Below, piece after piece: positions 10,906 through 23,651 of a stretch of 30,740 bases of DNA. The notes beneath the pieces are model-generated. The model was not told the origin of the DNA. It saw only the letters and a list, made by a program, of their open reading frames with translations, and did no database searches. Every line of letters starts with the position of its first letter. Within the stretch, counting starts at the first letter, position 1. A program made the translations under genes and the position numbers. The stretch comes from a virus: the IMG/VR virus record IMGVR_UViG_3300045999_003493, positions 1 to 30,740 of that record, one strand, 5' to 3'.

Positions 10906-10929
10906 ATTATATCACGAGGGGCTGACACT
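10906..10929 (-). promoter_or_regulatory. TGTCAG-class promoter P1
   Basis: On the minus strand, TGTCAG (10927-10922), 10 nt, then TATAAT (10911-10906). The box lies in the stem-loop that ends the upstream gene. It serves the gene starting at 10885. Confidence 0.65.
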
Positions 10930-10940
10930 TGGCCAGCCCC
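10918..10940 (-). terminator. Hairpin overlapping promoter P1
   Basis: GGGGCTG and CAGCCCC form a 7-bp stem between the Lsr2-like gene and the next promoter. No T-run follows. The promoter's TGTCAG box is inside it. Confidence 0.5.
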
Positions 10941-10964
10941 CCGATTGTCCACCTACTGGACAGC

Positions 10965-11111
10965 TTACTTCTTTGCCTGTGGCTTTTCTGCTTCGAATGT
11001 CATCCCACTTGTCTGAGCATCCGCAATTGCCTTTACAGCGGCAGCTGAGAAGCGGCCACGCTTACCCACAGTAATTCCTTGTGACTTTAGATATTCACGC
11101 TTTGTTGCCAT
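10965..11111 (-). CDS. Lsr2-tail-like DNA-binding protein
   Basis: A 48-residue protein, MATKREYLKSQGITVGKRGRFSAA then an Ala-rich helix. The REYL..QGI.VGKRGRFS..AV pattern matches the C-terminal DNA-binding domain of Lsr2, whose RGR loop inserts into AT-rich minor groove. Only this domain is present, with no oligomerisation domain. Stand-alone versions occur in actinophages and may counter or mimic host Lsr2 (inferred). The upstream -10 is TATAAT (11149-11144), without a TGTCAG box. Confidence 0.65.
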   Translation of the reverse strand: MATKREYLKSQGITVGKRGRFSAAAVKAIADAQTSGMTFEAEKPQAKK

Positions 11112-11211
11112 TTGTTTATCCCCTTTCAAGAGATGTTTTATTTATTATATCGGATATCGACGAATTTGTAAATACCCCCGTAAGAGCTTTGATCAGCCCC
11201 TACGTCCCGCC

Positions 11212-11412
11212 TTATATATTAAGTTGTAGATCTAATGATGTATCTTCGTTTAGATACACATCTGTAGCTTCGATCACATCATCTGTTGGAATGGAATCCC
11301 ATTCTGTCTCAGGTAATGCATTGGCTAAATCAACTGCCTCAAATTGATCGGCAGCCTCAATGATTGTATAATAGTTCTGATACTTATTTCCAAATACTCT
11401 ATAAGCTGGCAA
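11212..11412 (-). CDS. Small acidic hypothetical protein
   Basis: A 66-residue protein resembling the small beta-alpha-beta folds that phages use in many unassigned genes (RVFGNKYQNYYTIIEAADQFEAVDLA). The FEAVDLANALPETEW segment is reminiscent of DUF-type proteins in actinophages. It overlaps the next upstream gene by 14 nt and closes a long operon. Confidence 0.6.
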   Translation of the reverse strand: MPAYRVFGNKYQNYYTIIEAADQFEAVDLANALPETEWDSIPTDDVIEATDVYLNEDTSLDLQLNI

Positions 11413-11626
11413 GCTCTCTACTCTCCCATTCCGCTAATGTTCTAACAGTAAAGTCCTTACCTAGATTATAACAATATTTCACCGCTTTTGTCAATGACTC
11501 TGTCTCATATATTGGGACATCTAAAGGTATATCAGATTTATCATACACCTCAAACATATCGACTCCTCCAGGAGAGCAACCGTAATTAACTTCCAGGATT
11601 TCTAAGCTTGGCTCATAACCGTTCAT
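11399..11626 (-). CDS. Hypothetical protein
   Basis: A 75-residue protein. The start is ATG 11626, preceded by GAAAGGGACAAA and in an ATGA overlap with the upstream stop. The sequence is mixed alpha/beta with one Cys in YCYNLGKDFTVR and no known motif. It has no recognised family. Confidence 0.6.
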   Translation of the reverse strand: MNGYEPSLEILEVNYGCSPGGVDMFEVYDKSDIPLDVPIYETESLTKAVKYCYNLGKDFTVRTLAEWESRELASL

Positions 11627-11775
11627 TTTGTCCCTTTCTCTTTGGCCAACTTTTGCTGTTCCTTCCAGCGCTGCCAATGATTAACTTGTGTAATCTCAAC
11701 ATCAACTTCTGGAGGGCATTCAAGGATATATGGGACTCCTCCCACTATCTCTATCTTAACTTTGTATTTACTCAT
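11623..11775 (-). CDS. Small hypothetical protein
   Basis: A 50-residue protein with a beta-rich first half (KYKVKIEIVGGVPYILECPPEV) and a basic helix at the end. ATGA and 8-nt overlaps connect it to both neighbours. Not recognised. Confidence 0.6.
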   Translation of the reverse strand: MSKYKVKIEIVGGVPYILECPPEVDVEITQVNHWQRWKEQQKLAKEKGTK

Positions 11776-11908
11776 CGTTGCCTAGTCTATCTTTAATTAG
11801 TTTAGCAATGAGATTATGTGCTTCAATGTTTTCTGTTTCGGACCCGCCCCATAGTAAGCGCTGCGCTTCCGCTAGCACGGTATCCACATATTTGTCAGTT
11901 GTCTTCAT
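11768..11908 (-). CDS. Small helical protein
   Basis: A 46-residue helical protein, MKTTDKYVDTVLAEAQRLL then HNLIAKLIKDRL. The start at ATG 11908 lies 14 nt inside the preceding gene after a GAAGATGAAG purine run. I recall similar small actinophage proteins without function. Confidence 0.55.
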   Translation of the reverse strand: MKTTDKYVDTVLAEAQRLLWGGSETENIEAHNLIAKLIKDRLGNDE

Positions 11909-12209
11909 CTTCATCCTCTTCTTCTTCCCACATTGTATCCACAATGTAGTCACGATTAGTCATCCATTCAAGGACGTCGTCTTGGTGCTGTTCTGCCCCG
12001 TATTCTAAAGAGAACCCGTGGCCAGCCGATACAGCCTCACAGAGGTTGTCCCACATTTGATCTTGGGTAACCTTTGCCTTATAGGTTTCATCATCTAAGA
12101 TGTTGTTGATTGTGGACCACGTCCATAGCCAAACCATTGATAGGCCTAGGTCCGTTGTGTCTAGAATCTCTAAACATTTGTTTAGTTTATCTTTGTCTTC
12201 AGGCTTCAT
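11895..12209 (-). CDS. Hypothetical protein with acidic tail
   Basis: A 104-residue protein; ATG 12209 is chosen because GGAG stands 6 nt upstream. It has a Trp-rich segment (MVWLWTWSTINNIL) and ends in an extreme run of Glu/Asp (EEEEDEDED), which could mimic nucleic acid. DNA-mimic function is speculative. Confidence 0.6.
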   Translation of the reverse strand: MKPEDKDKLNKCLEILDTTDLGLSMVWLWTWSTINNILDDETYKAKVTQDQMWDNLCEAVSAGHGFSLEYGAEQHQDDVLEWMTNRDYIVDTMWEEEEDEDEDN

Positions 12210-12471
12210 CCCGTGCTCCAATCACAAAAGATAAATCATAAGTTAGTTTATATAGTTCTGTATATGTATCGAGGACACCCTCCCAATACTTTCGCTCCAT
12301 AGAATCCATTGCCTCTTCTGATTCTTCTTCAATCTGTTGGGCATTAGTTAGTTCTTGTTCAGCGATTAGCATTAGGTTTTTAAGTTCCCCGTGCATTATA
12401 TCTAATCCAGTAACACCTGCATTGACCATTCGTTGCAGGTGGGGCGGAAGCCCAACAACTTCAATATTCAT
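12199..12471 (-). CDS. Helical hypothetical protein
   Basis: A 90-residue protein made of long amphipathic helices rich in Glu and Met. It shares ATG/TGA overlap with the gene before and overlaps the next by 11 nt. No recognised family. Confidence 0.6.
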   Translation of the reverse strand: MNIEVVGLPPHLQRMVNAGVTGLDIMHGELKNLMLIAEQELTNAQQIEEESEEAMDSMERKYWEGVLDTYTELYKLTYDLSFVIGARDEA

Positions 12472-12632
12472 TTACTATTAACTCCTGCCTCATATGCAAC
12501 CTTATATATTTCAACAAGACGCTGATATACCGCTTTGCTTGCTTTATTTTCGCTAGACATAGCAGATTCAAAATAGATAATTTGGTCGGCTTGGTCTTGA
12601 AGGTCTTCCTTTACATCTGATGATAGTTTCAT
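12468..12632 (-). CDS. Small helical protein
   Basis: A 54-residue acidic, all-helical protein starting at ATG 12632 after the shared AACGAAAGG leader. It has its own TGTCAG-class promoter inside the coding sequence of the preceding gene. Function unknown. Confidence 0.6.
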   Translation of the reverse strand: MKLSSDVKEDLQDQADQIIYFESAMSSENKASKAVYQRLVEIYKVAYEAGVNSK

Positions 12633-12817
12633 CCATATACCCTTTCGTTAGAAGAGTTCATTATATCAGTAGCCACTGACAATAAATGCTCGGTTGCCAT
12701 AATTTGTCCCTGGATGTTTATCTTAGATTCAACATTCAAGTCTTTCTCCATATCCTGGTTAAGACTAATTAAATGAAGTTTCATATACTCTAAGAACTTA
12801 CTAGTCTTGGTAACCAT
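12629..12817 (-). CDS. Helical protein whose 3' end contains a promoter
   Basis: A 62-residue protein starting at ATG 12817 after a GAGGGG site. Its last 20 or so codons read LLSVATDIMNSSNERVYG, which is the in-frame translation of the TGTCAG box, -10 and AACGAAAGG leader of the following gene. The stop overlaps that gene's ATG by 4 nt. Either a real bifunctional stretch or read-through of an inserted promoter cassette. Confidence 0.55.
   Translation of the reverse strand: MVTKTSKFLEYMKLHLISLNQDMEKDLNVESKINIQGQIMATEHLLSVATDIMNSSNERVYG
12660..12683 (-). promoter_or_regulatory. TGTCAG-class promoter P2
   Basis: TGTCAG (12681-12676), 10 nt, TATAAT (12665-12660), then AACGAAAGG and ATG 12632. 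Located within a coding frame. Confidence 0.65.
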
Positions 12818-12986
12818 CAAAATACCCCTCTGCCCATAGACCCTGTAAAAAGCTGACAGCGTCTTCTAAGTCTTTTACCAGTGGGTCCTTGTTCATTAAA
12901 TCGGACGGGGATCGAAGATAAAATAACTTAACATCGTGTATAGCATTAATCATTCTATCGATATCTGCCATTTCATAACCTAGCAT
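12801..12986 (-). CDS. Small hypothetical protein
   Basis: A 61-residue helical protein (ADIDRMINAIHDVKLFYL, then DAVSFLQGLWAEGYFDG). A GGAG site is 9 nt upstream. It overlaps both neighbours. No recognised family. Confidence 0.6.
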   Translation of the reverse strand: MLGYEMADIDRMINAIHDVKLFYLRSPSDLMNKDPLVKDLEDAVSFLQGLWAEGYFDGYQD

Positions 12987-13165
12987 AGTTCATACTCCAT
13001 ATCCCAAGATACGTCAGGCCAATTTAAATCATATCTTTCGCTATCAACATCACCTAAATCGTTTAGGTGTAGATTAATTTTCTCGTGTGCTTCCTTTTCA
13101 TTATTGGCCATTACAGCACCTTCTAATCTAATTACAAATGGATACTTATTCAAAGTAATCCTCAT
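12980..13165 (-). CDS. Small hypothetical protein
   Basis: A 61-residue protein. I chose ATG 13165 after GAGGGAG because upstream starts would overlap the preceding gene by over 35 nt. It reads as a beta-alpha-beta unit (RITLNKYPFVIRLEGAV) with an acidic Trp-containing end. Similar 'VIRLEGAVMANNEKEA' proteins occur in phages, with no function known. Confidence 0.55.
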   Translation of the reverse strand: MRITLNKYPFVIRLEGAVMANNEKEAHEKINLHLNDLGDVDSERYDLNWPDVSWDMEYELC

Positions 13166-13364
13166 CTCCCTCTTTAAGTTCATAGAACTTATTGAATTCT
13201 TGTTGGACAAACTTATCCCCTGACATTTCAGCAAATTGTTTATCTGCATAATATTGACCTTCGTCAAGATTACTGTTAATCCAATCTTCTAGTAATTGTT
13301 CTGCTATATCTTGATAGCAAGCGTCAATTACCATTTGGTTTACATCTTCTAAGAAACTAGCCAT
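13146..13364 (-). CDS. Acidic helical hypothetical protein
   Basis: A 72-residue acidic protein with a strong GAGGAGG ribosome binding site 6 nt upstream of ATG 13364. Mostly helical, rich in Asp, Glu, Gln and aromatic residues. Not recognised. Confidence 0.6.
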   Translation of the reverse strand: MASFLEDVNQMVIDACYQDIAEQLLEDWINSNLDEGQYYADKQFAEMSGDKFVQQEFNKFYELKEGDEDYFE

Positions 13365-14148
13365 TTAGTGCCTCCTCTTGTGTGTAGGTTTTCAAAGGTA
13401 ATAATACACTATGGGTCTGACATTCTGCCATAGCCTTTTCATCCTGCCAAGAGCCCTCATTACATTCAGAGCAGAATTCACCACAGTCATCTTCACAATA
13501 CTCAACACAATCAAAAGACTGGCAAGCATAGCAACGGTTCTCATATGAAAGAATCTCTTTAACCTCACCACGAACAATCTCATACTCTCCACCCCAACCT
13601 GTTTCTTCCTCATACTCTAATGTGAGCAGGCAGTTAGGAACAAGATTACTTAGTTTAGTTAAGATAGTTACAGCAGGTGACCAAGCAGTCTCATATTTAT
13701 ATACAACCCAGTTGTCATCACCTTCTGACTTGTATTCAAGTAACTCTGTATTTGAGTATTCTTCTTCATCACGAACTGCAACATCCCATTTAGTTCCCCA
13801 GTTAGAGTTATTCCACGAATACCAATCCTTCTGAGTTTTAGCAAACTCAACAGACTTGCGGAACCAATCAGGGTCATTTTGGATATCTATGTCTCCACGA
13901 GAAGGCTGGCAGGCATATTCCTCATCAGTAATACCTTCATCCTTATATGAATGGATATTGAAGAATGCAAAGACAGGATTACTATAAGTAACCTGTTTAA
14001 TTTTGGTGGGGAAACCTGAAGAACTAATATCACCCATACCATATGTCTCTTGTGCTAATGTAAATGGCTTATTCAGTCTATCCTTGATATAATCAACTTC
14101 TGACTTTGGTCCTTGAATAGTTAACGTGTTATAACACCAATTTGGCAT
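13357..14148 (-). CDS. YubB/Api92-like ferredoxin-fold protein with Cys cluster
   Basis: A 263-residue protein starting MPNWCYNTLTIQGP, the hallmark of the Api92/YubB ferredoxin-like family (DUF1281) of phages and plasmids, with the family's WGTKWD and TAWSP blocks. The C-terminal third has a Cys-rich segment (RCYACQSFDCVEYCEDDC then EFCSEC) that could bind zinc or an iron-sulphur centre and is longer than I expect for the family. Function of the family is unknown. It heads a long operon from its own TGTCAG-class promoter. Confidence 0.75.
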   Translation of the reverse strand: MPNWCYNTLTIQGPKSEVDYIKDRLNKPFTLAQETYGMGDISSSGFPTKIKQVTYSNPVFAFFNIHSYKDEGITDEEYACQPSRGDIDIQNDPDWFRKSVEFAKTQKDWYSWNNSNWGTKWDVAVRDEEEYSNTELLEYKSEGDDNWVVYKYETAWSPAVTILTKLSNLVPNCLLTLEYEEETGWGGEYEIVRGEVKEILSYENRCYACQSFDCVEYCEDDCGEFCSECNEGSWQDEKAMAECQTHSVLLPLKTYTQEEALNG

Positions 14149-14173: not shown

Positions 14174-14197
14174 ATTATATATTAGACCACTGACATT
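14174..14197 (-). promoter_or_regulatory. TGTCAG-class promoter P3
   Basis: AATGTCAG ending at 14190, 10 nt, TATAAT (14179-14174), then an AGCGAAAGG leader and ATG 14148. It drives the operon 14148-11212. Confidence 0.7.
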
Positions 14198-14492: not shown

Positions 14493-14897
14493 CTAAACTG
14501 AGATGACAACGTCCGCATACTTCTCGACAAAGTTACTCAGGTCCATTGTAAAGATTGCTTGATTTTTCATCCCATTGACCTTGTTGTCTTTGTCATTGCG
14601 AGGAGCCTCTTCGTGAAGACTAAATGTTTGCTGCTCGAAATCTACAATAGCAACCTTGTGCTCATTGTCTCCAATTTCGTTTACGTGCAGGCCCCATCCA
14701 GTTTCTGAATTCCAGTCATTGTTAATCATCTGACTGATTGTAATGCGTGTTGCATATGCTGGGTCGGACCAGCGAGGACGTGCTTTAAATACTGCCTCTG
14801 CCAATTGTGCTAGCATATTATGTCCAGCCCAGTGCCCGTATAGGACGATTGTATTTCCGTTAGGTTGGACGAATCCAAAGTTTGCTCTGTCTCCCAT
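14493..14897 (-). CDS. Conserved actinophage protein (MGDRANFGF family)
   Basis: A 134-residue protein starting MGDRANFGFVQPNGNTIVLYGHWAGHNML, a start I recognise from many actinophage genomes, with the later blocks YATRITISQMI and ETGWGLHVNEIGDNEH. The fold appears alpha/beta. Function is not known to me. A GGCGGA site precedes ATG. It is the last gene of the operon driven from 16163. Confidence 0.7.
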   Translation of the reverse strand: MGDRANFGFVQPNGNTIVLYGHWAGHNMLAQLAEAVFKARPRWSDPAYATRITISQMINNDWNSETGWGLHVNEIGDNEHKVAIVDFEQQTFSLHEEAPRNDKDNKVNGMKNQAIFTMDLSNFVEKYADVVISV

Positions 14898-14898
14898 T

Positions 14899-15108
14899 TT
14901 ATTCCGCCATTTCTGTTAGTTGTGGTGCTTCTTCTTTTTTGTTTAATTCTATCATCTCGAATGAGACCTTGTCAAGGGCATCCTTGTTTTTATTGTAGTG
15001 GTGGCCACAAAAGAATAGTTCACCATCTACTAGTTTAATTAGATACATAGCCTGAGCTGTGCCACATTGATCACAGCCAATCCAGCGAGTTAGATCCTCA
15101 GAGGTCAT
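14899..15108 (-). CDS. Zinc-ribbon protein of the CDQCGTAQ type
   Basis: A 69-residue protein with CDQCGTAQAMYLIKLVDGELFFCGHHYNKN, in which two Cys form one half and CGHH the other half of a zinc site. The pattern matches the DUF7455-type small proteins common in actinobacteria and their phages. ATG 15108 is preferred because it gives the family's usual start; an in-frame TTG lies at 15123. Confidence 0.7.
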   Translation of the reverse strand: MTSEDLTRWIGCDQCGTAQAMYLIKLVDGELFFCGHHYNKNKDALDKVSFEMIELNKKEEAPQLTEMAE

Positions 15109-15254: not shown

Positions 15255-15467
15255 TTATCTCCCTGTATATCCTGTCGGTTCGTAGTCTGATGTATAACTC
15301 TCTATTAGATTATACTTATCTCGAATGCGACTTACTTTCTCAATGCTACCAGTTCCAATGTTGAATGTCAACGGTGCTAATGCTTGTGGGTCAAGACCCA
15401 TCATCTGAGCATCCCAATAGGCCATCTCCATCGATAGCCTATCAGGAGCAGTCAACTCAAAATACAT
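15255..15467 (-). CDS. Small hypothetical protein
   Basis: A 70-residue protein joined by TAATG to the gene before. Mixed fold, with PDRLSMEMAYWDAQMMGLDP and TFNIGTGSIEKV segments. Not recognised. Confidence 0.6.
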   Translation of the reverse strand: MYFELTAPDRLSMEMAYWDAQMMGLDPQALAPLTFNIGTGSIEKVSRIRDKYNLIESYTSDYEPTGYTGR

Positions 15468-15931
15468 TATGCTTCCCTCACATTACAAACTTCTTGGTCA
15501 AGGATTTCAATATTGCCATTGTGTGAGTCGGCATAGATAGCATCTGTAATCTCTGATTCAAGTTCGTAATCAGTATCATAATCAGAAAGCAAATCAATTT
15601 CAATTGTTCCGCTAACCTCGATAGATGCAGTCCACTCGACTGTTCTAGTCAACTCAATACCAAGGGCTTCTGCGATTGCACGAAGTGTATCTTGGTCTTG
15701 TGAGTCAGCATATGCCTCGCCGATAATATCTTTGACAGTGTTTATCTTGTCTTCAAATACTCCGACACGCTTCTGTGCTTGACGTGCATTGTGTAGGTCC
15801 CACTCAATTGATGTAACCTTATCAGTTGCATATTCTGCATCCGAATATCCCTTGATTACTTTGTAGGTAACCAATAGATTTGGGTTATATGTATCAGGAA
15901 CCGTTGTTATTGTTGTCTCTGCAGTTTCCAT
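15467..15931 (-). CDS. Short isoform from internal promoter P4
   Basis: In-frame ATG 15931 is preceded by AACGAAAGGGAATGA and by a complete TGTCAG-class promoter (15996-15975), exactly as for independent genes. It would give a 154-residue protein lacking the Cys-rich N-terminal domain of the long form. The body (TRTVEWTASIEVSGTIEIDL) looks like a small beta domain with an acidic end. This may be the original gene boundary. Confidence 0.55.
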   Translation of the reverse strand: METAETTITTVPDTYNPNLLVTYKVIKGYSDAEYATDKVTSIEWDLHNARQAQKRVGVFEDKINTVKDIIGEAYADSQDQDTLRAIAEALGIELTRTVEWTASIEVSGTIEIDLLSDYDTDYELESEITDAIYADSHNGNIEILDQEVCNVREA

Positions 15932-16135
15932 TTCATTCCCTTTCGTTTCTGTTATAGGTGTATCTGTATACGGTATTGTAGCATCTTCCACTGACAATAA
16001 TGTGCAATTGGAATTGCATCGGCATGTGAGGTCCATCACACCCGCTGGCCATCCATATCCATCTTTAATTGTATATTCAATTAAAGCGTCACAGTCTCCC
16101 GTGCACACCCATGTATATTTCTGATACTTTGTCAT
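15467..16135 (-). CDS. Two-domain protein with N-terminal zinc finger (long isoform)
   Basis: A 222-residue protein. Residues 1-55 form a Cys-rich module (VCTGDCDAL, then LTCRCNSNC) of a type I know as a separate small actinophage protein. A linker reading LLSVEDATIPYTDTPITETKGNE is the translation of promoter P4 and its leader. The second domain is helical then beta-rich. ATG 16135 lies 6 nt after the P5 -10, predicting a leaderless mRNA. It looks like two neighbouring genes fused by loss of the stop codon between them. Function unknown. Confidence 0.6.
   Translation of the reverse strand: MTKYQKYTWVCTGDCDALIEYTIKDGYGWPAGVMDLTCRCNSNCTLLSVEDATIPYTDTPITETKGNEMETAETTITTVPDTYNPNLLVTYKVIKGYSDAEYATDKVTSIEWDLHNARQAQKRVGVFEDKINTVKDIIGEAYADSQDQDTLRAIAEALGIELTRTVEWTASIEVSGTIEIDLLSDYDTDYELESEITDAIYADSHNGNIEILDQEVCNVREA
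15975..15998 (-). promoter_or_regulatory. TGTCAG-class promoter P4 (internal)
   Basis: TGTCAG (15996-15991), 10 nt, TACAAT (15980-15975), within the long reading frame. It would produce the short isoform from ATG 15931. Confidence 0.6.
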
Positions 16136-16141: not shown

Positions 16142-16165
16142 ATTGTACACCTGGCCACTGACATT
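16142..16165 (-). promoter_or_regulatory. TGTCAG-class promoter P5, leaderless
   Basis: AATGTCAG, 10 nt, TACAAT (16147-16142), then 6 nt to ATG 16135. A TTGTAA lies at -35 with 17-nt spacing. This is one of two TGTCAG promoters with no room for a leader. Confidence 0.6.
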
Positions 16166-16382: not shown

Positions 16383-17387
16383 TTAGAAAGTTGCAACCAT
16401 TCGATACAACTTATTTTTTTCTGCGGTTAGAACTGGGTCAAAACCAGATGCACCCGCCATAAGTGTTTCACCATTGCCACGACCTGAACGATAATAATCA
16501 AGACGCTCAGTTAGTGCATTGAACGCACCCCACTTTGTTCCCTTGATTGTAGCGTTAGTTGGTGAATTGTGATACAAATCGTCAATGAGAACAACTTTGT
16601 TTTCCCACTTCTTCAATGCACCCTTAGTATCCTTATCGGGCTTAGGATAAATTGTCTGAATCAACTTAGAGAATTCAGCATCAGTAATTGCTTGAGAGTA
16701 TAGCGCCTTTGCTTGAACTTCGAATTCATCGAAATATCCAAGAGCAAGCCCAAGAGTTTCACGAGCAACTTGAATGCGACCTTCAACAGATTGCGTGTGG
16801 CGAATCTTGAAAGATTGCTTTGCATTCTTCATTGCAAGATTCAAAGTGTTTTGGCATACAACACGAACAGGTGTAACCGCTGCTTGAACAGCAACAGAAC
16901 CATCGTGTGATGTCCATACGATTAGATATAACTTTGTTTGGTCATTGGCGCCTTGTGGGTCAAGAACCATTGTGCGAGGAATATCTACAGTTCCAAATAC
17001 AACTTTGCCCTTCTTTAGAGAACCAGCAGATTCCCAACGGCAATCAGCATTGGCATCGTGAATTGCATCAGCGAACTGAAATAATTCTTCATTCTGCACT
17101 GGCTTATAACGCTTACCAACAGTAGCAAGAACATCAGTTCCGCCATTGAATGGGTTATCACGAATAACCAATGAGGCTTCAGACACATCATTCCAAGATT
17201 CTGAAATGTGGTCAGTTAGTGGAGATAAACGAACATTCCAATTCGCTAACTTTGCTTCTTCAAGCATTGTTGCGGTTGTAACTTCTTCATCTTGTGTAAA
17301 GATGCGATTTGCAAGGTTGTGCCAAGCAGGTGCACCACGGAGAGCGAAAGCAACTTCGCCATTTTCGACTTCGAGATTGTGAGCCAT
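16383..17387 (-). CDS. DUF932 / phage-plasmid-like protein
   Basis: A 334-residue protein of the DUF932 family (phage/plasmid-like, TIGR03299): MAHNLE start, the PAWHNLANRIF block, YKPVQNEELFQFADAI, and the VRVVCQNTLNLAM motif. Length is normal for the family. Such proteins accompany mobile DNA; their function is not established. It has its own TGTCAG-class promoter with a TGTGA-N6-TCACA palindrome about 70 nt upstream. This is the largest gene of the leftward block. Confidence 0.85.
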   Translation of the reverse strand: MAHNLEVENGEVAFALRGAPAWHNLANRIFTQDEEVTTATMLEEAKLANWNVRLSPLTDHISESWNDVSEASLVIRDNPFNGGTDVLATVGKRYKPVQNEELFQFADAIHDANADCRWESAGSLKKGKVVFGTVDIPRTMVLDPQGANDQTKLYLIVWTSHDGSVAVQAAVTPVRVVCQNTLNLAMKNAKQSFKIRHTQSVEGRIQVARETLGLALGYFDEFEVQAKALYSQAITDAEFSKLIQTIYPKPDKDTKGALKKWENKVVLIDDLYHNSPTNATIKGTKWGAFNALTERLDYYRSGRGNGETLMAGASGFDPVLTAEKNKLYRMVATF

Positions 17388-17414: not shown

Positions 17415-17438
17415 ATTATAACAGGTGGCACTGACATT
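17415..17438 (-). promoter_or_regulatory. TGTCAG-class promoter P6
   Basis: AATGTCAG, 10 nt, TATAAT (17420-17415), then AACGAAAGG and ATG 17387. A TAGACA lies 17 nt before the -10. Confidence 0.7.
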
Positions 17439-17607: not shown

Positions 17608-17850
17608 TTATCCAAGCAAGTTAGTTAGTTCAGATTTTGGTGGAAGAGATTCACGATTTATAATTAGAGCAGTTGTCTTTTTCTTTTTTAGATTATCATA
17701 AACATATGCTCTGATGTTTCCGTCAAACTTACGCATATTAGAAAATACTAATTCAGTTAGATATTCTTTATCCACACCTTGCTCTGAATAGATTGTCAAG
17801 TCATTTGCTTTGTTCTCGTCATAGATTTCTACACGATAACGGTTTTTCAT
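17608..17850 (-). CDS. Small basic alpha/beta protein
   Basis: An 80-residue protein with a beta strand start (RYRVEIYDENKANDLTIY) and a basic segment (NLKKKKTTALIINRE). The shape suggests a small RRM-like or ferredoxin-like fold. Its -10 (TATAAT, 17883-17878) lacks a TGTCAG box. Function unknown. Confidence 0.6.
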   Translation of the reverse strand: MKNRYRVEIYDENKANDLTIYSEQGVDKEYLTELVFSNMRKFDGNIRAYVYDNLKKKKTTALIINRESLPPKSELTNLLG

Positions 17851-17888
17851 TTTGTTCCTTTGTTAGTAGGGATAATAATTATAACATT

Positions 17889-17913
17889 GGGGGCTAGATT
17901 TTGTCTAGCCCCC
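17889..17913 (-). terminator. 10-bp perfect hairpin
   Basis: GGGGGCTAGA and TCTAGCCCCC with a 5-nt loop, between the genes ending at 17921 and starting at 17850. It abuts the next -10, so termination and re-initiation are adjacent. Confidence 0.65.
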
Positions 17914-18168: not shown

Positions 18169-18591
18169 TTATAGATAACGAGCAATAGCGTTGTATGTGG
18201 AAGTATTTACAACTTCCTCATCTGTCATTTTGAGGATACGAATTGCGTTCGTGATTTCCTCTTTCATTTCATTGTATTGGTGAGTATGAACAACCTCAAA
18301 ATCCTTTTCAGGTTCTTTAGGAAAAGTTCCCTCTTTAGTGATGATGTCAAAATCAACATTGAGAGTGTTGTTCCAAGAGCGATAGTTTGTGCGAAGGTTC
18401 TCAGCCTTTGAGAAGTTAGCAATAGCCCACTTGCCTACTTCCTTTTTCCACGCTTCGTGCGCCTTAGTGTGCTTTGCTTCGTTTTCGCCTTGTGCCTTAT
18501 AGTTCTTTTCTAACTCAGCAAGGCGTGTTTCTAGTGCCTTGATTACTTTAGGTGTAGCGATTTTCACGCTAATAGATTTTCCTCTACTCAT
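18169..18591 (-). CDS. Helical hypothetical protein, 140 aa
   Basis: A protein with a long helical, Lys/Glu-rich first half (KALETRLAELEKNYKAQGENEAKH, read here in part) typical of a coiled coil and a C-terminal alpha region ending TYNAIARYL. It has its own TGTCAG-class promoter. I do not recognise a domain; coiled-coil interaction protein is the most that can be said. Confidence 0.6.
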   Translation of the reverse strand: MSRGKSISVKIATPKVIKALETRLAELEKNYKAQGENEAKHTKAHEAWKKEVGKWAIANFSKAENLRTNYRSWNNTLNVDFDIITKEGTFPKEPEKDFEVVHTHQYNEMKEEITNAIRILKMTDEEVVNTSTYNAIARYL

Positions 18592-18624: not shown

Positions 18625-18648
18625 AGTATAACATAGGGGTCTGACATT
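18625..18648 (-). promoter_or_regulatory. TGTCAG-class promoter P7
   Basis: AATGTCAG, 10 nt, TATACT (18630-18625), then GAACGAAAGG and ATG 18591. GGGGT/ACCCC (18636-18654) pair around the box. Confidence 0.65.
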
Positions 18649-18726: not shown

Positions 18727-18876
18727 TTAGACTTCTACTGAAGTCCAACGCTCTGAGCCATTTACATCAAGTAGCACTCTTGCCACTCCGCTAGGGTGGT
18801 TATCTACTGCCTTGATTACTCCGACTACGCCTGACTTAGCAGTTGTAATCGTGCTTCCGATTTCTAGTGTTGTCAT
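18727..18876 (-). CDS. Small SH3-like protein
   Basis: A 49-residue beta-rich protein (EIGSTITTAKSGVVGVIKAV, then VLLDVNGSERWTSVEV). Probable paralogue of the 17921 gene. ATG 18876 is preceded by AACGAAAGGAAACAAA, the shared leader. Function unknown. Confidence 0.6.
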   Translation of the reverse strand: MTTLEIGSTITTAKSGVVGVIKAVDNHPSGVARVLLDVNGSERWTSVEV

Positions 18877-18901: not shown

Positions 18902-18925
18902 ATTATACAGGGTGGGTCTGACATT
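18902..18925 (-). promoter_or_regulatory. TGTCAG-class promoter P8
   Basis: AATGTCAG, 10 nt, TATAAT (18907-18902), leader and ATG 18876. The box is in the loop of a GGGTGG/CCACCC hairpin (18910-18933). Confidence 0.7.
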
Positions 18926-18960: not shown

Positions 18961-18976
18961 TGTGATACTAATCACA
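18961..18976. promoter_or_regulatory. CRP/GlxR-like palindrome
   Basis: TGTGATACTAATCACA, extended by one base pair on each side. It overlaps the stop codon of the upstream gene and lies about 60 nt above the P8 -10, so it may be either a terminator hairpin or an operator. Confidence 0.45.
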
Positions 18977-19246
18977 CTCAGGAAGCCACGCATCTAAGTG
19001 GTGAGCCTCGATGATAGCCGATGCAGGTGCAGTATTTTGATCCCGCCAAGTAATCGGTGCAGGTAGGTCAATAAGACGCTGATAGTCCTCCTCATAGTAT
19101 GCGTCAATAGCATCTATGCAAGGTTGCACCATTGAGCGGGGAACGGGTGGATAGTGATTACTTGATAAGTGAATACCAATTTGTGTTTCTAAGTCTAAGC
19201 CTAATAAGTCGTTATCGGCTAGTTCAGTTGCGAAAGTGCTTCCCAT
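18968..19246 (-). CDS. Conserved actinophage hypothetical protein
   Basis: A 92-residue protein, FATELADNDLLGLDLETQIG at the start and ASAIIEAHHLDAWLPE at the end. I recognise this as a recurring actinophage protein without known role. It starts directly after the TAA of the preceding gene. Confidence 0.65.
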   Translation of the reverse strand: MGSTFATELADNDLLGLDLETQIGIHLSSNHYPPVPRSMVQPCIDAIDAYYEEDYQRLIDLPAPITWRDQNTAPASAIIEAHHLDAWLPECD

Positions 19247-19522
19247 TTATTCGTTCTCCTCTAAGATAGTTTCTGATAGGTCGTCCATTTCATCTATTGT
19301 AGCAACAAGGTCTGACATTTCTTGCTCGGTCAATAGGATTTTAGTTATGCTATCGGCAACCTTAGCAGATAGAGCCGATGAATACATAAATAAATACTTA
19401 GCATAGATTTCATCTGATAGTTCATTTCTGCGTGTGTGCAGTTCACCCGCTAATCCCATTATGTCCTCGTCAAAGATACTTGATTTGGTTGCGTCTAAGA
19501 TTTCAATAGCAGTTGATAGCAT
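19247..19522 (-). CDS. Helical hypothetical protein
   Basis: A 91-residue acidic, all-helical protein. ATG 19522 overlaps the upstream stop by one base (TAATG) and has AAAGGG 9 nt upstream. No known domain. Confidence 0.6.
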   Translation of the reverse strand: MLSTAIEILDATKSSIFDEDIMGLAGELHTRRNELSDEIYAKYLFMYSSALSAKVADSITKILLTEQEMSDLVATIDEMDDLSETILEENE

Positions 19523-19746
19523 TAGATATTTCCCTTTACTGTCAATTCTGCCCAAGTGTTATTTTCATTTGCTACTTCAAGAGTATTAGACATACCAAGA
19601 GCGTGAATGGTTGCACCCTTGCACATCTTTTCAATTTCAGATTGTGGTAGGTTGATTAGTGCAGGCAATAGATTTGCAGGGATTTTATCCAAGTCAATAA
19701 TTGCCTCAAAAACTACTGTGTGTGGAACCTTCATTAGATTAGACAT
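19522..19746 (-). CDS. Hypothetical protein
   Basis: A 74-residue mixed alpha/beta protein (HTVVFEAIIDLDKIPANLLPAL, partial). First gene of a three-gene unit with its own promoter and an AACGAAAGG leader. Not recognised. Confidence 0.6.
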   Translation of the reverse strand: MSNLMKVPHTVVFEAIIDLDKIPANLLPALINLPQSEIEKMCKGATIHALGMSNTLEVANENNTWAELTVKGNI

Positions 19747-19775: not shown

Positions 19776-19799
19776 ATTTTACACTAGGCCACCGACATT
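19776..19799 (-). promoter_or_regulatory. TGTCAG-class promoter P9 (TGTCGG)
   Basis: AATGTCGG, 10 nt, TAAAAT (19781-19776), leader and ATG 19746. The only copy with G at the fifth box position. Confidence 0.55.
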
Positions 19800-20045: not shown

Positions 20046-20765
20046 TCATTTCTTAGTTGCGCTAAATCTAATATCCGCTTTACCGTAGACACATAGGCCA
20101 CATGAAACACATGCGGACCCTGCATTGCTAATAAGTGGAATGCTCTTCATATTCTCAGGACACTTAGCACCAGGCTTACCAGTTAATTCTTTCATTGTGT
20201 TTTCAGTAAGCGCAAAAGTTTTGCCAAGGTAAGCAAGTCGTATACCGTCATTAAGTTTTAAATCGTGTGCAATCTCTTTATTCTCATCATCCGTTGAATA
20301 ATAAAGTGAAAGATTAGATACATTCTTAAGAATAAGCGCTGCAGACTTAACACGAGTATAAACCCAGAATTGAATATCTGGGTGGTTCATGATAATAGTC
20401 TTCCACGCATATGCGTAGGTATCGTTAAAGAAATCGCCGTCCCAGTGGATACGGAATAACTTAGGTGCCTCTTTCTTTTCACAATCATTGACAAAGTCAA
20501 CAATCATCTCATCAAGCAATAGCAACATGGCGTCCATGTCTGCATTACGTAGGAGCTCCCAGTTATGAAGAAGATTAGTTTTTACTCCTGGGAATAGCTT
20601 TTCAAGCTTGCCTGCATAGCAAACAGTCTCGCAGATAGACGTAGCACCAGGACATGAAAAATCTTTTCCTGCGGGTAGGCCAAACGTGTTGGCAATTGCT
20701 GCTTGCTTTCCATTTTTTGTGACAAGGTTAGCCACCTTTCGATCATTTGAACGTTTTAATTTCAT
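20046..20765 (-). CDS. GP88-like protein (Cys-rich, possible Fe-S)
   Basis: A 239-residue protein. It begins KLKRSNDRKVANLV, followed by FGLPAGKDFSCPGATSIC, ETVCYAGK and an HWDGDFF motif, and ends in a CVSCGLC cluster. The layout matches the mycobacteriophage gene-product-88 family, whose function is not settled. The Cys clusters (Cys-x-Ala-Gly and CVSCGLC) suggest a metal or Fe-S centre. ATG 20765 is chosen because it lies 7 nt after a -10 within a TGTCAG-class promoter, predicting a leaderless mRNA; further ATG codons upstream would overlap that promoter. Confidence 0.75.
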   Translation of the reverse strand: MKLKRSNDRKVANLVTKNGKQAAIANTFGLPAGKDFSCPGATSICETVCYAGKLEKLFPGVKTNLLHNWELLRNADMDAMLLLLDEMIVDFVNDCEKKEAPKLFRIHWDGDFFNDTYAYAWKTIIMNHPDIQFWVYTRVKSAALILKNVSNLSLYYSTDDENKEIAHDLKLNDGIRLAYLGKTFALTENTMKELTGKPGAKCPENMKSIPLISNAGSACVSCGLCVYGKADIRFSATKK

Positions 20766-20772
20766 AGGGGTA

Positions 20773-20796
20773 ATTATAGCGGTTAGATCTGACATA
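20773..20796 (-). promoter_or_regulatory. TGTCAG-class promoter P10, leaderless
   Basis: ATGTCAG, 10 nt, TATAAT (20778-20773), 7 nt, ATG 20765. The AACGAAAGG leader is absent here. Confidence 0.6.
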
Positions 20797-21006
20797 TTAG
20801 TAATCCTCATCCATTCCGTGTCCTGCAGACGCAAGGGCGTCGGAATCGGACCAGCCAGTTAGTTCATAGAATTCCATTTCTTCGGAATCATAACATTCGG
20901 CACACATATAGTCATCGCCAAAGACTTCATAATCAGACTCATTATCAAAAGTCATAGTTGAGCCACAGATTTCAGAGTTTAAGCAAGCAACGGTAATTTG
21001 TTCCAT
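20797..21006 (-). CDS. Acidic Cys-containing protein
   Basis: A 69-residue, very acidic protein with Cys8 and Cys14 near the start and a CAECY pair mid-way, a likely zinc site. The C-terminal end is Asp/Ser/Gly-rich. It has its own promoter and a GAACGAAAGG leader. Unknown function. Confidence 0.6.
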   Translation of the reverse strand: MEQITVACLNSEICGSTMTFDNESDYEVFGDDYMCAECYDSEEMEFYELTGWSDSDALASAGHGMDEDY

Positions 21007-21035
21007 TAGTTGGACCTTTCGTTCGATTTAAGAGA

Positions 21036-21059
21036 ATAATACCATAGGGCACTGACATT
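21036..21059 (-). promoter_or_regulatory. TGTCAG-class promoter P11
   Basis: AATGTCAG, 10 nt, TATTAT (21041-21036), then GAACGAAAGG and ATG 21006. Confidence 0.65.
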
Positions 21060-21082
21060 TTTTGAAACACGCCCCAGAATCT

Positions 21083-21107: not shown

Positions 21108-21149
21108 CGACACGCCCGACTCCGCAGCTCTGCGGGCATTTGTCGACAA

Positions 21150-21281
21150 TTAAGAATTTAATTTATTTTTATGTTTGATCTTGCGTGTGTATTTTTTTTT
21201 ATTGCGAACAGGTTGCGCCGCATTACTGCGACGCAATTCCTGAATGCGTTTTACTTTATCTTGAACTGAAGTTAGGAACAT
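21150..21281 (-). CDS. Very basic small protein
   Basis: A 43-residue protein rich in Lys and Arg (VKRIQELRRSNAAQ, then NKKKYTRKIKHKNK). It overlaps the preceding gene by 26 nt with a GAGTGGG site. The charge suggests nucleic acid binding. Moderately supported. Confidence 0.5.
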   Translation of the reverse strand: MFLTSVQDKVKRIQELRRSNAAQPVRNKKKYTRKIKHKNKLNS

Positions 21282-21447
21282 TATACCCACTCGCTTCGTG
21301 AAATCTTTTTACATCAAATCGCTCATTATCTTTCGCAAACATTTCCGCAAAATCATTTACGATTTTAGAAAATAAAGCGGGGTGAGTTTTATTGCTCGCA
21401 TACTTTAGAATTTCTGCGGTTGCGATGTAATCTTTTCTAGTCATCAT
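21256..21447 (-). CDS. Conserved small actinophage protein (MTRKDY)
   Basis: A 63-residue helical protein starting MMTRKDYIATAEIL with ADNERFD-like middle (KDNERFDVKRFHEASG). I know the MTRKDYxxxAxxL...RFDxxRF pattern from many actinophages. Function unknown. ATGA overlap with the gene before. Confidence 0.7.
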   Translation of the reverse strand: MMTRKDYIATAEILKYASNKTHPALFSKIVNDFAEMFAKDNERFDVKRFHEASGYNVPNFSSR

Positions 21448-21647
21448 TTTACTACGACCTCTCCTGAACGATAAAATAATTTAGTGTAGCATTTGCCAGT
21501 TGGTGTAAATAAATTTACAGTTGAGTATTCATTAGCAGAACCCCAATCGGTAAAGCGGAAAAAGTTTTCCCACGCACCAAATTCGTTTTCGTATTCGGCA
21601 GACCAGTGGGGAGCGTTGCTATCATAAGCGCAAGTTAGTTTATACAT
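21444..21647 (-). CDS. Small aromatic-rich protein
   Basis: A 67-residue beta-rich protein with many Trp, Tyr and Phe (HWSAEYENEFGAWENFFRF). Linked to neighbours by TAATG and ATGA. Not recognised. Confidence 0.6.
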   Translation of the reverse strand: MYKLTCAYDSNAPHWSAEYENEFGAWENFFRFTDWGSANEYSTVNLFTPTGKCYTKLFYRSGEVVVK

Positions 21648-21811
21648 TAGTTATTTACCCAATCTAGTGTTAGTTCATCAGAGATTTCATCTACGCAAGA
21701 GCAAGGCTCTACATCATAGTTATTTTCATTTCCCCAAAATAAGAAACCAGCACCACCGCACTCATCGCAATTCGCTGCGATTATTTCTATGTATTCTTTT
21801 ACTTTAGCCAT
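21647..21811 (-). CDS. Zinc-motif protein
   Basis: A 54-residue acidic protein with CDECGGAGF and CSC motifs, the DnaJ-type CxxCGGAG zinc knuckle plus a second half. First gene of a five-gene unit from promoter P12. Function unknown. Confidence 0.65.
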   Translation of the reverse strand: MAKVKEYIEIIAANCDECGGAGFLFWGNENNYDVEPCSCVDEISDELTLDWVNN

Positions 21812-21926
21812 TTAGGTTTTCCCTTTCGTTTGTTTTGGTAATTGTAGCAGATAGGACTGACAAGGCTTCCGCCTTGCTTGCTTCACGTTGTGCGATAACG
21901 TGCTTTTTGAATTCGTCTAGGTTCAT
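21804..21926 (-). CDS. Small protein overlapping promoter P12
   Basis: A 40-residue frame starting in an ATGA overlap with the preceding gene. Its second half (ALSVLSATITKTNERENLNG) is the in-frame translation of promoter P12 and its leader, and its stop overlaps the next ATG by 8 nt. Probably translated, but the end may be a by-product of the promoter cassette. Confidence 0.45.
   Translation of the reverse strand: MNLDEFKKHVIAQREASKAEALSVLSATITKTNERENLNG
21841..21864 (-). promoter_or_regulatory. TGTCAG-class promoter P12 (within a frame)
   Basis: TTGTCAG, 10 nt, TACAAT (21846-21841), then AACGAAAGGG and ATG 21811. Confidence 0.6.
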
Positions 21927-22048
21927 TCGAACGCTCCTTCGTTTAGTAATCCGATTTCGATTTGAAATAACTCATCTGGAGTGGCTTCGGATAAATCTAC
22001 CCAGCCAGCACCATTTTCATTTATGCGAAAAATTTCGATGTGTCCCAT
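21923..22048 (-). CDS. Small hypothetical protein
   Basis: A 41-residue acidic protein (MGHIEIFRINENGAGWVDLS...). It begins directly behind the upstream TAA (TAATAATG) and ends in ATGA. Not recognised. Confidence 0.55.
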   Translation of the reverse strand: MGHIEIFRINENGAGWVDLSEATPDELFQIEIGLLNEGAFE

Positions 22049-22050
22049 TA

Positions 22051-22257
22051 TTATTCACCAACCTTTACTGCGATTGTTGCGAATTTATTTCGCAGACCGC
22101 CCGTGCGAATTTCGATTAGATACGCTTCGGTTTTTTCGCCGTAGTAAATTTCAGGGCGAGGTTCAGCAGAAACGATTTCGCCTGAAAAGTGGCGAGAGTT
22201 TGAGCGATAGTTTTTTCCTACAAGTAGGCTTTCGATTGTGTATAGTTTGGTAGCCAT
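22051..22257 (-). CDS. Conserved small actinophage protein (LYTIESLLVGKNYR)
   Basis: A 68-residue beta-rich protein starting MATKLYTIESLLVGKNYRS and ending FATIAVKVGE, a family I know from actinophages. The central part reads SAEPRPEIYYGEKTEAYLIEIR. Function unknown. GAAGG lies before ATG. Confidence 0.7.
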   Translation of the reverse strand: MATKLYTIESLLVGKNYRSNSRHFSGEIVSAEPRPEIYYGEKTEAYLIEIRTGGLRNKFATIAVKVGE

Positions 22258-22292
22258 TGGCAGACCTTCTTTCGTTTGTTGTTATGTATGGA

Positions 22293-22316
22293 ATTATACA
22301 CGAACGGACTGACATT
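22293..22316 (-). promoter_or_regulatory. TGTCAG-class promoter P13
   Basis: AATGTCAG, 10 nt, TATAAT (22298-22293), then a leader with AACGAAAG and ATG 22257. Confidence 0.65.
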
Positions 22317-22361
22317 TTCCAATTTGGCAAGGGTTTGTCTCACTATTTGGAGCGTGGGCTT

Positions 22362-22377
22362 TGTGATAAGCATCACA
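22362..22377. promoter_or_regulatory. CRP/GlxR-like palindrome, tandem copy A
   Basis: TGTGATAAGCATCACA. The 19-bp unit including CAA is repeated 23 bp further on. Confidence 0.55.
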
Positions 22378-22384
22378 CAAGTTA

Positions 22385-22400
22385 TGTGATAAGCATCACA
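22385..22400. promoter_or_regulatory. CRP/GlxR-like palindrome, tandem copy B
   Basis: Identical TGTGATAAGCATCACA, 23 bp from copy A (about two helical turns), so bound dimers would lie on nearly the same face. Confidence 0.55.
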
Positions 22401-22444
22401 CAAAATGTCCGATTTGTCTGTCAAATCGACACGCCGCAGAATTC

Positions 22445-22469
22445 AGGGTTTTTTATAACAAATCCGTAA
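22445..22469. repeat. AGGG-N16-CGTAA element
   Basis: AGGG 22445-22448, T6 run, CGTAA 22465-22469; then CGACACGCC and a CCCG/CGGG hairpin near 22483-22498. Confidence 0.55.
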
Positions 22470-22501
22470 CGACACGCCCGACCCCGTGCCTTTGCGGGCC
22501 A

Positions 22502-22518
22502 GCTTGATTTTGTCAAGC
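22502..22518. terminator. GCTTGA/TCAAGC hairpin
   Basis: A 6-bp perfect stem with 5-nt loop just after the gene ending at 22533. No T-run on the minus strand. Confidence 0.35.
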
Positions 22519-22532
22519 CGACACGCCGTTAT

Positions 22533-22661
22533 TTAGCGAAAATCTTTTATGACTTCCCTCACATCTTCTTTTAGGTCTGCCCACATTAGGCGAGCCATAT
22601 ATAGGGCGGGGATCCCAATACCTAATTGCACTAGCGTAGTTAGTATGCGGTTAGTAGTCAT
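22533..22661 (-). CDS. Small membrane protein
   Basis: A 42-residue protein with one hydrophobic helix (LTTLVQLGIGIPALYMARL) and a charged C-terminal helix. TAATG junction with the preceding membrane protein gene. Unknown function. Confidence 0.6.
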   Translation of the reverse strand: MTTNRILTTLVQLGIGIPALYMARLMWADLKEDVREVIKDFR

Positions 22662-22816
22662 TACTTATTCTTCTTTCTCTTATAAATCTTATAGCCGATT
22701 ACTAGGGCGGTGATAATAGCAATAGTGTGCCAAGGTAAATAGATAGCGCCTAGAAAACTATCTAACTCTAATCCGTAGTCGCTTGTTATGTATAACTCTA
22801 ATCCGTTAGGTATCAT
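22661..22816 (-). CDS. Small single-pass membrane protein
   Basis: A 51-residue protein with an acidic N-terminus, a membrane helix (TIAIITALVIGYKIY) and a basic end (KRKKNK). TAATG links on both sides. Together with the next gene it may form a membrane pair. Confidence 0.6.
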   Translation of the reverse strand: MIPNGLELYITSDYGLELDSFLGAIYLPWHTIAIITALVIGYKIYKRKKNK

Positions 22817-22968
22817 TATTTTACCTCTACTCCTCTTACATTGTAGGTAAATCCTTTACCTAGTTTATTTAGTTCGGTCATTACATTTAGCAATTCATCT
22901 GCGCTATTAGCCTTGTTATCTACGCTTAGTAGTTGCGAGCCTTGCCATAGTGAGTAAGTGATAGTCAT
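22816..22968 (-). CDS. Small soluble protein
   Basis: A 50-residue protein (MTITYSLWQGSQLLSVDNKA...) with a beta start and a helix with MTELNKLGKGF. It starts directly behind the upstream TAA. Unknown function. Confidence 0.6.
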   Translation of the reverse strand: MTITYSLWQGSQLLSVDNKANSADELLNVMTELNKLGKGFTYNVRGVEVK

Positions 22969-23163
22969 TTATTTTATTCCTAACATAGTAGCGACATTAT
23001 CTAATTCTTCATCTGTAAGATGGTCTAACTCAATAGCCTTAGAAAATCCGAAAAAATCTTCTTCATCTTCATTATTTAGCGCATTGTTATACGCTTCTTC
23101 TTCATCAAGATAAACATAAGCATCGCTTACATCTGCTTGGATAGTATCCCATTTAGTCATCAT
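22969..23163 (-). CDS. Acidic small protein
   Basis: A 64-residue acidic protein (MMTKWDTIQADVSDAYVYLDEEE...). ATG 23163 follows AACGAAAGAAGAAC; ATG 23160 is an alternative. First gene of a four-gene unit. The Glu/Asp-rich region NNEDEEDFFGF could be a mimic or interaction surface. Not recognised. Confidence 0.6.
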   Translation of the reverse strand: MMTKWDTIQADVSDAYVYLDEEEAYNNALNNEDEEDFFGFSKAIELDHLTDEELDNVATMLGIK

Positions 23164-23199
23164 TATCTGTTCTTCTTTCGTTAGTAGGTTATGTGTGAA

Positions 23200-23223
23200 A
23201 TTGTAGCGTATCGGTCTGACATT
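23200..23223 (-). promoter_or_regulatory. TGTCAG-class promoter P14
   Basis: AATGTCAG, 10 nt, TACAAT (23205-23200), leader and ATG 23163. Confidence 0.65.
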
Positions 23224-23249
23224 ATCAAGCGACACGCCGTTAGTGTGTA

Positions 23250-23265
23250 TGTGAGTTAGCCCACA
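23250..23265. promoter_or_regulatory. Near-match CRP/GlxR-like palindrome
   Basis: TGTGAGTTAGCCCACA, one mismatch to TGTGA-N6-TCACA, about 50 nt above the P14 -10. It covers the stop codon of the next gene. Confidence 0.35.
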
Positions 23266-23408
23266 TTTACTAGGGCGTGTGTAGCGTAGTTACCGCCACA
23301 CATTACGCATAGAGTCCAAGCGGTTACTCTACCGCAACCGCTAGAGCAAGCGACATAGTCGCTATTAGTCTGATAGTCGTTACGACTTTCCCAAATTCTA
23401 TTAGTCAT
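23256..23408 (-). CDS. Zinc-motif protein
   Basis: A 50-residue protein with CSSGC (Cys21, Cys25) and CVMCGG (Cys34, Cys37), a probable four-Cys site. It shares TAATG with the preceding gene. Function unknown. Confidence 0.6.
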   Translation of the reverse strand: MTNRIWESRNDYQTNSDYVACSSGCGRVTAWTLCVMCGGNYATHALVNVG

Positions 23409-23578
23409 TATTTAGACTCCTTATCTATACAGTTGATACAGTAGCAAGCCTTGCTACTTAGTAAATCACGCAATAGAGCCTTGCGTGTGTAGGCATTTAG
23501 TCCATATGAGGACTTTACTCCACCATTGTGGAAATCGTGCACGATTGTGCTATACAGAGTTTCTGTTAGTTGAGTCAT
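23408..23578 (-). CDS. Small protein with CYCINC end
   Basis: A 56-residue helical protein ending in CYCINC, with a strong AAAGGAG ribosome binding site. First gene of the leftward block at its origin from the divergent control region. Function unknown. Confidence 0.6.
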   Translation of the reverse strand: MTQLTETLYSTIVHDFHNGGVKSSYGLNAYTRKALLRDLLSSKACYCINCIDKESK

Positions 23579-23627
23579 TATCTGACTCCTTTCTTTAGTA
23601 AGACTTTCTTACTTTCTTTATACTATA

Positions 23628-23651
23628 AGCCTAACACGGGGCACTGACATT
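23628..23651 (-). promoter_or_regulatory. TGTCAG-class promoter P15 (weak -10)
   Basis: AATGTCAG, 10 nt, TAGGCT (23633-23628), directly followed by TATAGT. The -10 at the usual spacing is poor; the TATAGT beyond it gives a 16-nt spacing instead. Confidence 0.45.

Follow-up and report, generated by a model that had tools for sequence, protein, structure and literature searches.

A TGTC box at a fixed distance from the -10 hexamer marks a promoter class in a large group of uncultured phages

Introduction

Why do the leftward genes of an uncultured phage share a TGTCAG hexamer exactly 10 nt ahead of their -10 hexamers, and what could read it? The question is raised by IMG/VR virus record IMGVR_UViG_3300045999_003493, whose 30,740 bases are the whole stretch of DNA analysed here (the window). 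An earlier note, made from the sequence alone, had proposed that the box defines a promoter class in which it stands in for the -35, placed much as in the middle promoters of phage T4, with a repressor site like the stoperators of mycobacteriophage L5 as the alternative. In our judgement, phage transcription control has been little studied in the actinobacterial phylum.

The window has a G+C content of 38% and carries four tRNAs. Taken with the literature, G+C content may at most hint at fresh water as the source of these contigs. Its 10-24 kb part gave no megablast match in a phage collection. At the protein level the DUF932 protein and a glycosyltransferase are nearest to those of Streptomyces phages of the Stanwilliamsviridae, at about 50% identity, and the terminase, taken from a relative, shows 60-64% identity among the 40 matches listed. 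The longest relatives in the phage group that were searched whole measure 112-117 kb. WhiB is encoded by 11 of 12 large relatives in one survey and by 15 of 15 in another, and whiB is treated as a marker of actinophages in two papers (PMC10202952; PMC6802176). The hosts of this phage and its relatives are probably actinobacteria. The boxed arrays match the leftward terminal-repeat genes of cultured Streptomyces phages in gene content and direction.

Results

Scanning the window for TGTC(A/G)G-N10-TANNNT returns 17 sites, all on the minus strand, and none on the plus strand. The earlier note had listed 15 sites on one strand and none at rightward genes; each of the 15 is present, the box and the -10 being separated by exactly 10 nt, the strand and the absence from rightward genes hold, and the count was short by two, at 13401 and 19296. 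TGTCAG-N10-TANNNT occurs 16 times against 0.45 expected, a number reached in none of 100 shuffles, and the 17th site, at 19776, is a TGTCGG copy. The -10, previously given as TATAAT, is exactly so at seven sites and a variant at the other ten (TACAAT at five, TATTAT at two, and TATACT, TAAAAT and TAGGCT at one each). At 14 of the 17 sites a gene starts 14-43 nt downstream of the predicted +1.

The same arrangement is widespread. A pattern scan of viral contigs, with CGAAAGG included in the pattern, found at least 119 stretches, 117 of 119 belonging to one phage group by protein matches; in the records searched whole the motif is present in 40 of 40, mostly on one strand and in 2 to 20 copies. 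A further scan added 92 loci not found before. A simple rule assigns 83 of them to the main group; of the remaining nine, three are short pieces and six are more distantly related, with 3-26 copies, often TGTCAGTGGT. A third scan added at least 72 new loci, all of the main group. The short contig L124 is linked to the main group by no more than two weak protein matches, yet carries three sites, which are TGTCAGTGG promoters ahead of small ORFs (L124:5657-6299).

For a test free of bias from the box, relatives of the DUF932 protein were collected by protein similarity alone; from several hundred each time, the best 80 were taken, once as a close set (78 of the 80 loci examined) and once as a distant set (80 loci), together 158 loci. 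Our claims on spacing, retention and the trade-off with the -35 rest on these loci, and the figures on promoter anatomy (637 sites), on 204 non-redundant promoters, on the -35 of the three unboxed genes below and on hairpins come from loci chosen wholly or mostly by the box. All 78 close loci carry an exact TGTCAG-N10 promoter ahead of DUF932, and their box density per 10 kb is 8.5 on the gene strand versus 0.014 on the opposite strand; in the distant set the count per locus runs from 22 down to 0. The scan of relatives that the earlier note had proposed recovers the same geometry, with 1,432 boxes at a distance of 10 nt from the -10 in the 158 loci, no more than 31 at any other distance tested between 4 and 17, and 23 at distance 10 on the opposite strand.

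Among the 637 distinct pattern-chosen sites the promoter consists of an A/T-rich stretch at -31 to -29, TGTCAG at -28 to -23, then T/A, G/C and G/C (W-S-S), often TGn, and the -10. TGTC is preceded by A or T, and by G in only 3% of the 637. The 10-nt spacer, earlier described as not conserved, is thus patterned in part, as W-S-S follows the box and the TG of an extended -10 is present in 56% of the 204 non-redundant boxed promoters. W-S-S shows no strand preference, which suggests minor-groove reading. A second half-site 11 bp upstream is absent: a TGTCA match of at least 4/5 occurs at offset -11 in 0.5% of the 204. In the protein-fetched loci a Shine-Dalgarno sequence and start codon lie downstream of 83% of 768 and 76% of 482 distinct boxed sites, compared with 6% for opposite-strand -10-like hexamers, and the predicted +1 coincides with Y-A in 45% and 67%, respectively, where a control position gives 24% and 19%. 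One near-identical boxed site, TGTCAGCAAATGTCTATAC(A/T)AT, recurs in several genomes (G055:106820, G064:69146, G057:63 and G032:2379, record coordinates), about 50 nt from another box; its spacer is conserved, unlike that of other sites.

As to the -35, the earlier statement that none is consistent applies to most boxed promoters and fails for a minority: TTGACA is matched at 5/6 or better at spacer 16-18 in 21% of the 204, compared with 2.5% at a control position, and the residual -35 is enriched at spacer 17-18. Among gene-start promoters with an extended -10, a 5/6 TTGACA is found in 18% of 324 boxed versus 62% of 95 unboxed promoters in the close set, and in 21% of 131 versus 44% of 179 in the distant set. 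Gene by gene in the close set, a 5/6 -35 accompanies the box in 9/56 upstreams of DUF1281, 0/41 of ORF 13146, 1/35 of 15467, 0/57 of 18169, 0/28 of GP88 and 2/54 of 22051. Both TGn and a 4/6 -35 are missing from 29% of the 204 (15% under a stricter rule).

Unboxed promoters stand on the same strand of the window. The mini-Lsr2 gene 10965-11111 has TTTACA-N17-TATAAT at 11144..11172 (box in 0/42; counting here and below only upstreams with a usable, 5/6, -10, a -35 of at least 5/6 in 94% of 69 usable of 76). ORF 17608-17850 has TAGACA-N18-TATAAT at 17878..17907 (box in 0/61; -35 in 91% of 33 usable of 91), and ORF 14493-14897 has TTGACA-N18-TAGAAT at 14946..14975 (box in 0/57; -35 in 64% of 96 usable of 105). 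Whether a gene has a boxed or an unboxed promoter is mostly stable among close relatives.

The box itself varies between genomes. In distant relatives the core TGTC is constant and the next two bases differ (AG, GG, TG, CG or CA); in orthologs of the window loci the commonest variant is TGTCGG. The array strand of G062 has 26 TGTCGG and no TGTCAG, and in G053 TGTCGG makes up 13 of 15 TGTCRG. Counting TGTCNN at gene starts, GG accounts for 17/23 in L427 (part of G062) and TG for 10/13 in L436, 7/9 in L442 and 6/8 in L445, and L432 has CA in seven and CT in three of 11. Over 59 loci with at least five sites (622 sites, related loci included), bases 5-6 of two sites in one locus agree at a rate of 0.616, compared with 0.391 after shuffling across loci; none of 2,000 shuffles reached the observed rate. 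Variation among genomes with a tendency to uniformity inside each is what would be expected where one reader governs many sites.

Inverted repeats are found at a minority of these promoters. Stems of at least 7 occur in 5.4% of non-redundant promoters versus 0.8% for swapped partners, and fold energies below -7 in 25% versus 12% (15 upstream bases included). In the window such repeats enclose the box or the -35 at 10906 and 13401 (both by fold), 18902 (by eye) and 17878-17907. We set aside a hairpin promoter as the explanation: the hairpins are real and in the minority, the unboxed promoter of ORF 17608 has one too, and no complementarity in a fixed register was found at boxed promoters. The repeats are perhaps terminators of the upstream gene that overlap the next promoter.

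Retention was scored gene by gene for the boxed promoters of the window, all on the minus strand. Counts are distinct upstreams of close relatives fetched by protein similarity, with exact TGTCAG unless stated, and they omit protein hits that start beyond the first 12 residues or have fewer than 110 bases upstream. Loss of the box in close relatives that retain the -10 was one of the outcomes that the earlier note had named as speaking against the class. The box is kept at most genes, for example in 56/56 upstreams of the DUF932 gene 16383-17387 (promoter 17415..17436, with a -35, TAGACA, kept as well), and it is rare at two: ORF 10472-10885 (10906..10927, TGTCAG-N10-TATAAT; 2/28) and ORF 18968-19246, whose promoter at 19296..19317 lies inside ORF 19247-19522 (only 6/52, plus one TGTCGG). 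ORF 21647-21811 (21841..21862) is also less stable, with 14/34 plus two TGTCGG.

Going along the array, ORF 12468-12632 has its promoter at 12660..12681, within the 3' end of the upstream ORF (5/5), and ORF 13146-13364 at 13401..13422, within the 3' end of the DUF1281 gene (41/42); these two sites and that at 19296 overlap the end of an upstream gene. The DUF1281_C gene 13357-14148 follows from 14174..14195 (55/56 plus one TGTCGG) and ORF 15467-15931 from 15975..15996 (35/36 plus one TGTCAT). Further along lie the promoters of ORF 18169-18591 at 18625..18646 (54/59 plus three TGTCGG) and of ORF 18727-18876 at 18902..18923 (48/55 plus seven other TGTC boxes). The TGTCGG variant at 19776..19797 serves ORF 19522-19746, whose relatives have TGTCAG in 23/26 and TGTCGG in three. 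ORF 20797-21006 has its box at 21036..21057 (12/12), ORF 22051-22257 at 22293..22314 (51/54 plus three TGTCGG) and ORF 23408-23578, with a weak -10, TAGGCT, at 23628..23649 (29/33 plus one TGTCGG). Two further sites come from the motif scan and have no gene assigned: 16142..16163, with no gene start assigned by its +1, and 23200..23221. The GP88-family gene (20046-20765), with its promoter at 20773..20794 (19/32 plus nine TGTCGG), has its likely ATG (20765) 1 nt past the predicted +1 (window 20765-20794, minus strand), so its transcript may be leaderless. Retention is lower in the distant set, at 31/67 plus 17 other TGTC boxes for DUF932 and 13/56 plus eight for 18727.

Elsewhere in the window, three proteins (5298-5936, 5917-6531 and 27345-27905) match 2OG-Fe(II) oxygenase families, and relatives encode similar ones. 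An HslV-like peptidase and a subtilase-family protein are close neighbours on the plus strand (943-1509 and 2058-2993).

Discussion

The constant spacing, the strand, the placement at gene starts, conservation in relatives and the decay of the -35 give good support to the earlier proposal of a promoter class with a box in place of the -35, positioned as in T4 middle promoters. We hold, with moderate confidence, that the box is a positive promoter element whose reader, most likely encoded by the phage, would hold sigma region 4 in place of a -35. Host RNA polymerase with sigma-A would recognise the -10, often in its extended TGn form, while a trans-acting factor would bind as a monomer at about -31 to -19 (AAATGTCAG plus W-S-S). 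The bound factor would then keep sigma region 4 in position where a good -35 is lacking, as class II activation like that by T4 MotA, and as many as about 26 promoters of small genes in a genome would be switched on together. The factor most likely comes from the phage, since the dinucleotide that follows TGTC varies from genome to genome but tends to be shared by the sites of a single genome.

Candidate readers were sought in the large genomes. Sigma region 2 (PF04542) and PhoB-type Trans_reg_C (PF00486) were found in 0 of 15, with positive controls in both searches, and MotA (MotCF) also in 0 of 15, in a search without a positive control; sub-threshold matches to sigma region 4 occur in 8 of 12 genomes, mostly in short frames. 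Among the proteins present in all ten genomes compared are WhiB, an HTH_17-like protein and a helix-turn-helix (HTH) protein of about 48 aa. PMC10245118 describes WhiB-like (Wbl) proteins as binding sigma-A region 4, and for that reason the phage WhiB-like protein is the best single candidate component; that it belongs to the reader is a guess. Upstream of WhiB, TTGACA-N17/18 promoters lie at 236-361 nt in three genomes, with an intervening ORF in one. A fuller version of the model is more tentative: one phage factor, probably with the WhiB-like protein on sigma-A region 4, may read TGTCNN at its constant 10 bp from the -10 and drive up to 26 promoters per genome, its sites being rewritten together when specificity changes.

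The HTH protein of about 48 aa is encoded at G001:63632-63778 (plus strand; the same as L131:3632-3778), beside a RuvC-like gene, and has homologs in nine other genomes. In Pfam it matches a generic HTH and, below threshold, sigma region 4; in PHROGs its matches are to DNA-binding and HNH families. The helix of this protein hardly varies, whereas the boxes do. The 140-aa product of 18169-18591 was considered as an activator and dropped: it has no match in the phage collection, its relatives are variable and occur group-wide, and it looks coiled-coil. Mini-Lsr2 (10965-11111, minus strand), 48 aa and barely more than an Lsr2-type DNA-binding domain, has its own conserved unboxed promoter and is best regarded as a bystander; longer Lsr2-like proteins lie in the same array of Streptomyces relatives.

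Several observations weigh against a phage activator that replaces the -35. The loci are related, and the counts are not independent. The box is rare in relatives at 10472 and 18968. A TGn alone can permit initiation independent of a -35, and it is present in 56% of boxed promoters. A 5/6 -35 is kept despite the box in 45/56 upstreams of DUF932 and 20/53 of 18727, and many distant relatives have TTGACA immediately 5' of the box, so the box is not always a -35 replacement; taken with the residual -35 enrichment, the adjoining TTGACA may mean that replacement is a later stage of a promoter that once had both. Agreement within genomes is partial, L448 (CG in five and AG in three of 10) and L422 being mixed. 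Neither WhiB, the HTH_17-like protein nor the 48-aa HTH visibly tracks the box variant, and WhiB is also present in Jay2Jay, whose arrays carry only a weak element.

Other explanations have to be weighed against these facts. That the positive element is read by a host factor or the host holoenzyme, with phages carrying the variant their host reads, is possible and in our view rather doubtful. The likeness of the arrays to the terminal-repeat genes of Streptomyces phages would fit it, as such DNA plausibly enters early, before any phage-made factor; box variants go with phage lineages, and these in turn may go with hosts, and L124 carries its three sites with hardly any protein similarity to the main group. 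However, the strict box form with CGAAAGG has a single match in a collection of bacterial and archaeal genomes, in a Clostridia genome (hosts could use the box without CGAAAGG), and ordinary TTGACA promoters coexist within the same phage genomes. An ordinary extended -10 promoter with a functionless box inherited by duplication is highly improbable: the frequent TGn would suit it, but the box is kept while spacer and flanks diverge, and a part of the boxed promoters (29%, or 15% under the stricter rule) has neither TGn nor -35.

We consider it unlikely that the box serves a repressor, as an operator lying in the spacer through which the gene set would be shut off together later in infection or during immunity. 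It is common for operators to lie between -35 and -10, the TTGACA-W-TGTCNG of distant relatives forms an imperfect inverted repeat, and the TGTCA core recurs in the L5 stoperators. Yet nothing requires a repressor site to keep its distance to the -10 to within a base, and repression leaves unexplained why the -35 decays with the box and is retained without it. A positive element with a reader that stands in for the -35 remains our preferred reading.

The box defines a promoter class of a large uncultured phage group and makes its gene set predictable from sequence, and the natural variants (AG, GG, TG, CG and CA) form a series for finding the reader.

Comparison with known systems

Similar gene arrays are found in cultured relatives. 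In the leftward terminal-repeat arrays of five Samistivirus Streptomyces phages a weak TGTC lies at the same offset (mean 2.1-2.5 of 4 matches, background about 1); this offset is not unique, as scores of 2.0-2.2 are reached at the offset of the extended -10, and one -35 offset in Angela slightly exceeds it. Unlike the boxed promoters, at least half of those in each of the five keep TTG at the -35, and their -10 is TAGACT. The weak TGTC was not seen at this offset in StarPlatinum, Coruscant (4 promoters) or the rightward promoters of Jay2Jay.

Stoperators of mycobacteriophage L5, with consensus GGTGGMTGTCAAG, are many one-way sites with a TGTCA core. The sites described here are AAATGTCAG, with TGTCAG rather than TGTCAAG and A/T rather than GGTGG before it, and are locked to the -10, which makes the earlier note's stoperator alternative less likely. 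In the E. coli phoA and pstS promoters the -35 is replaced by the downstream TGTCA half-site, whose end lies 10 bp short of the -10. Pho boxes are direct repeats, whereas the phage promoters have no second half-site; the pho core is given as CTGTCAT in PMC4415409. WhiB7, a class II activator, and the co-activators WhiA and WhiB are actinobacterial partners of sigma-A region 4, and a WhiB-like protein is present in 15 of 15 large genomes; the A/T-rich DNA contacted by WhiB7 lies upstream of the -35 rather than at -28 to -20. WhiA is described in three papers as binding asymmetric GACAC, or GTGTC in the other orientation, as a monomer (PMC10245118; PMC3781837; PMC6282962), a site that the box does not match, G preceding TGTC in only 3% of sites.

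Full-text searches of open-access literature, subscription papers not being covered, listed no description of this promoter class. Judged from sequence, it is a real and widespread class that would work like the MotA-box class without being a member of it. In T4 middle promoters, according to PMC2988021, the MotA box near -30 replaces the -35, about half have TGn, and MotA acts as a monomer. Both classes have a box centred near -30 that stands for the -35 over a host -10, with an A/T run before it; they differ in the box, TGTCAG here and (a/t)(a/t)(a/t)TGCTTtA in T4, and in the spacing, 10 here and 12 +/- 1 in T4. If the reader acts through sigma-A region 4, this would be a second, independent phage route to redirecting host polymerase at the -35, and if the model of one phage factor with a WhiB-like protein were true, it would amount to sigma appropriation as in T4, carried out on actinobacterial polymerase by unrelated proteins.

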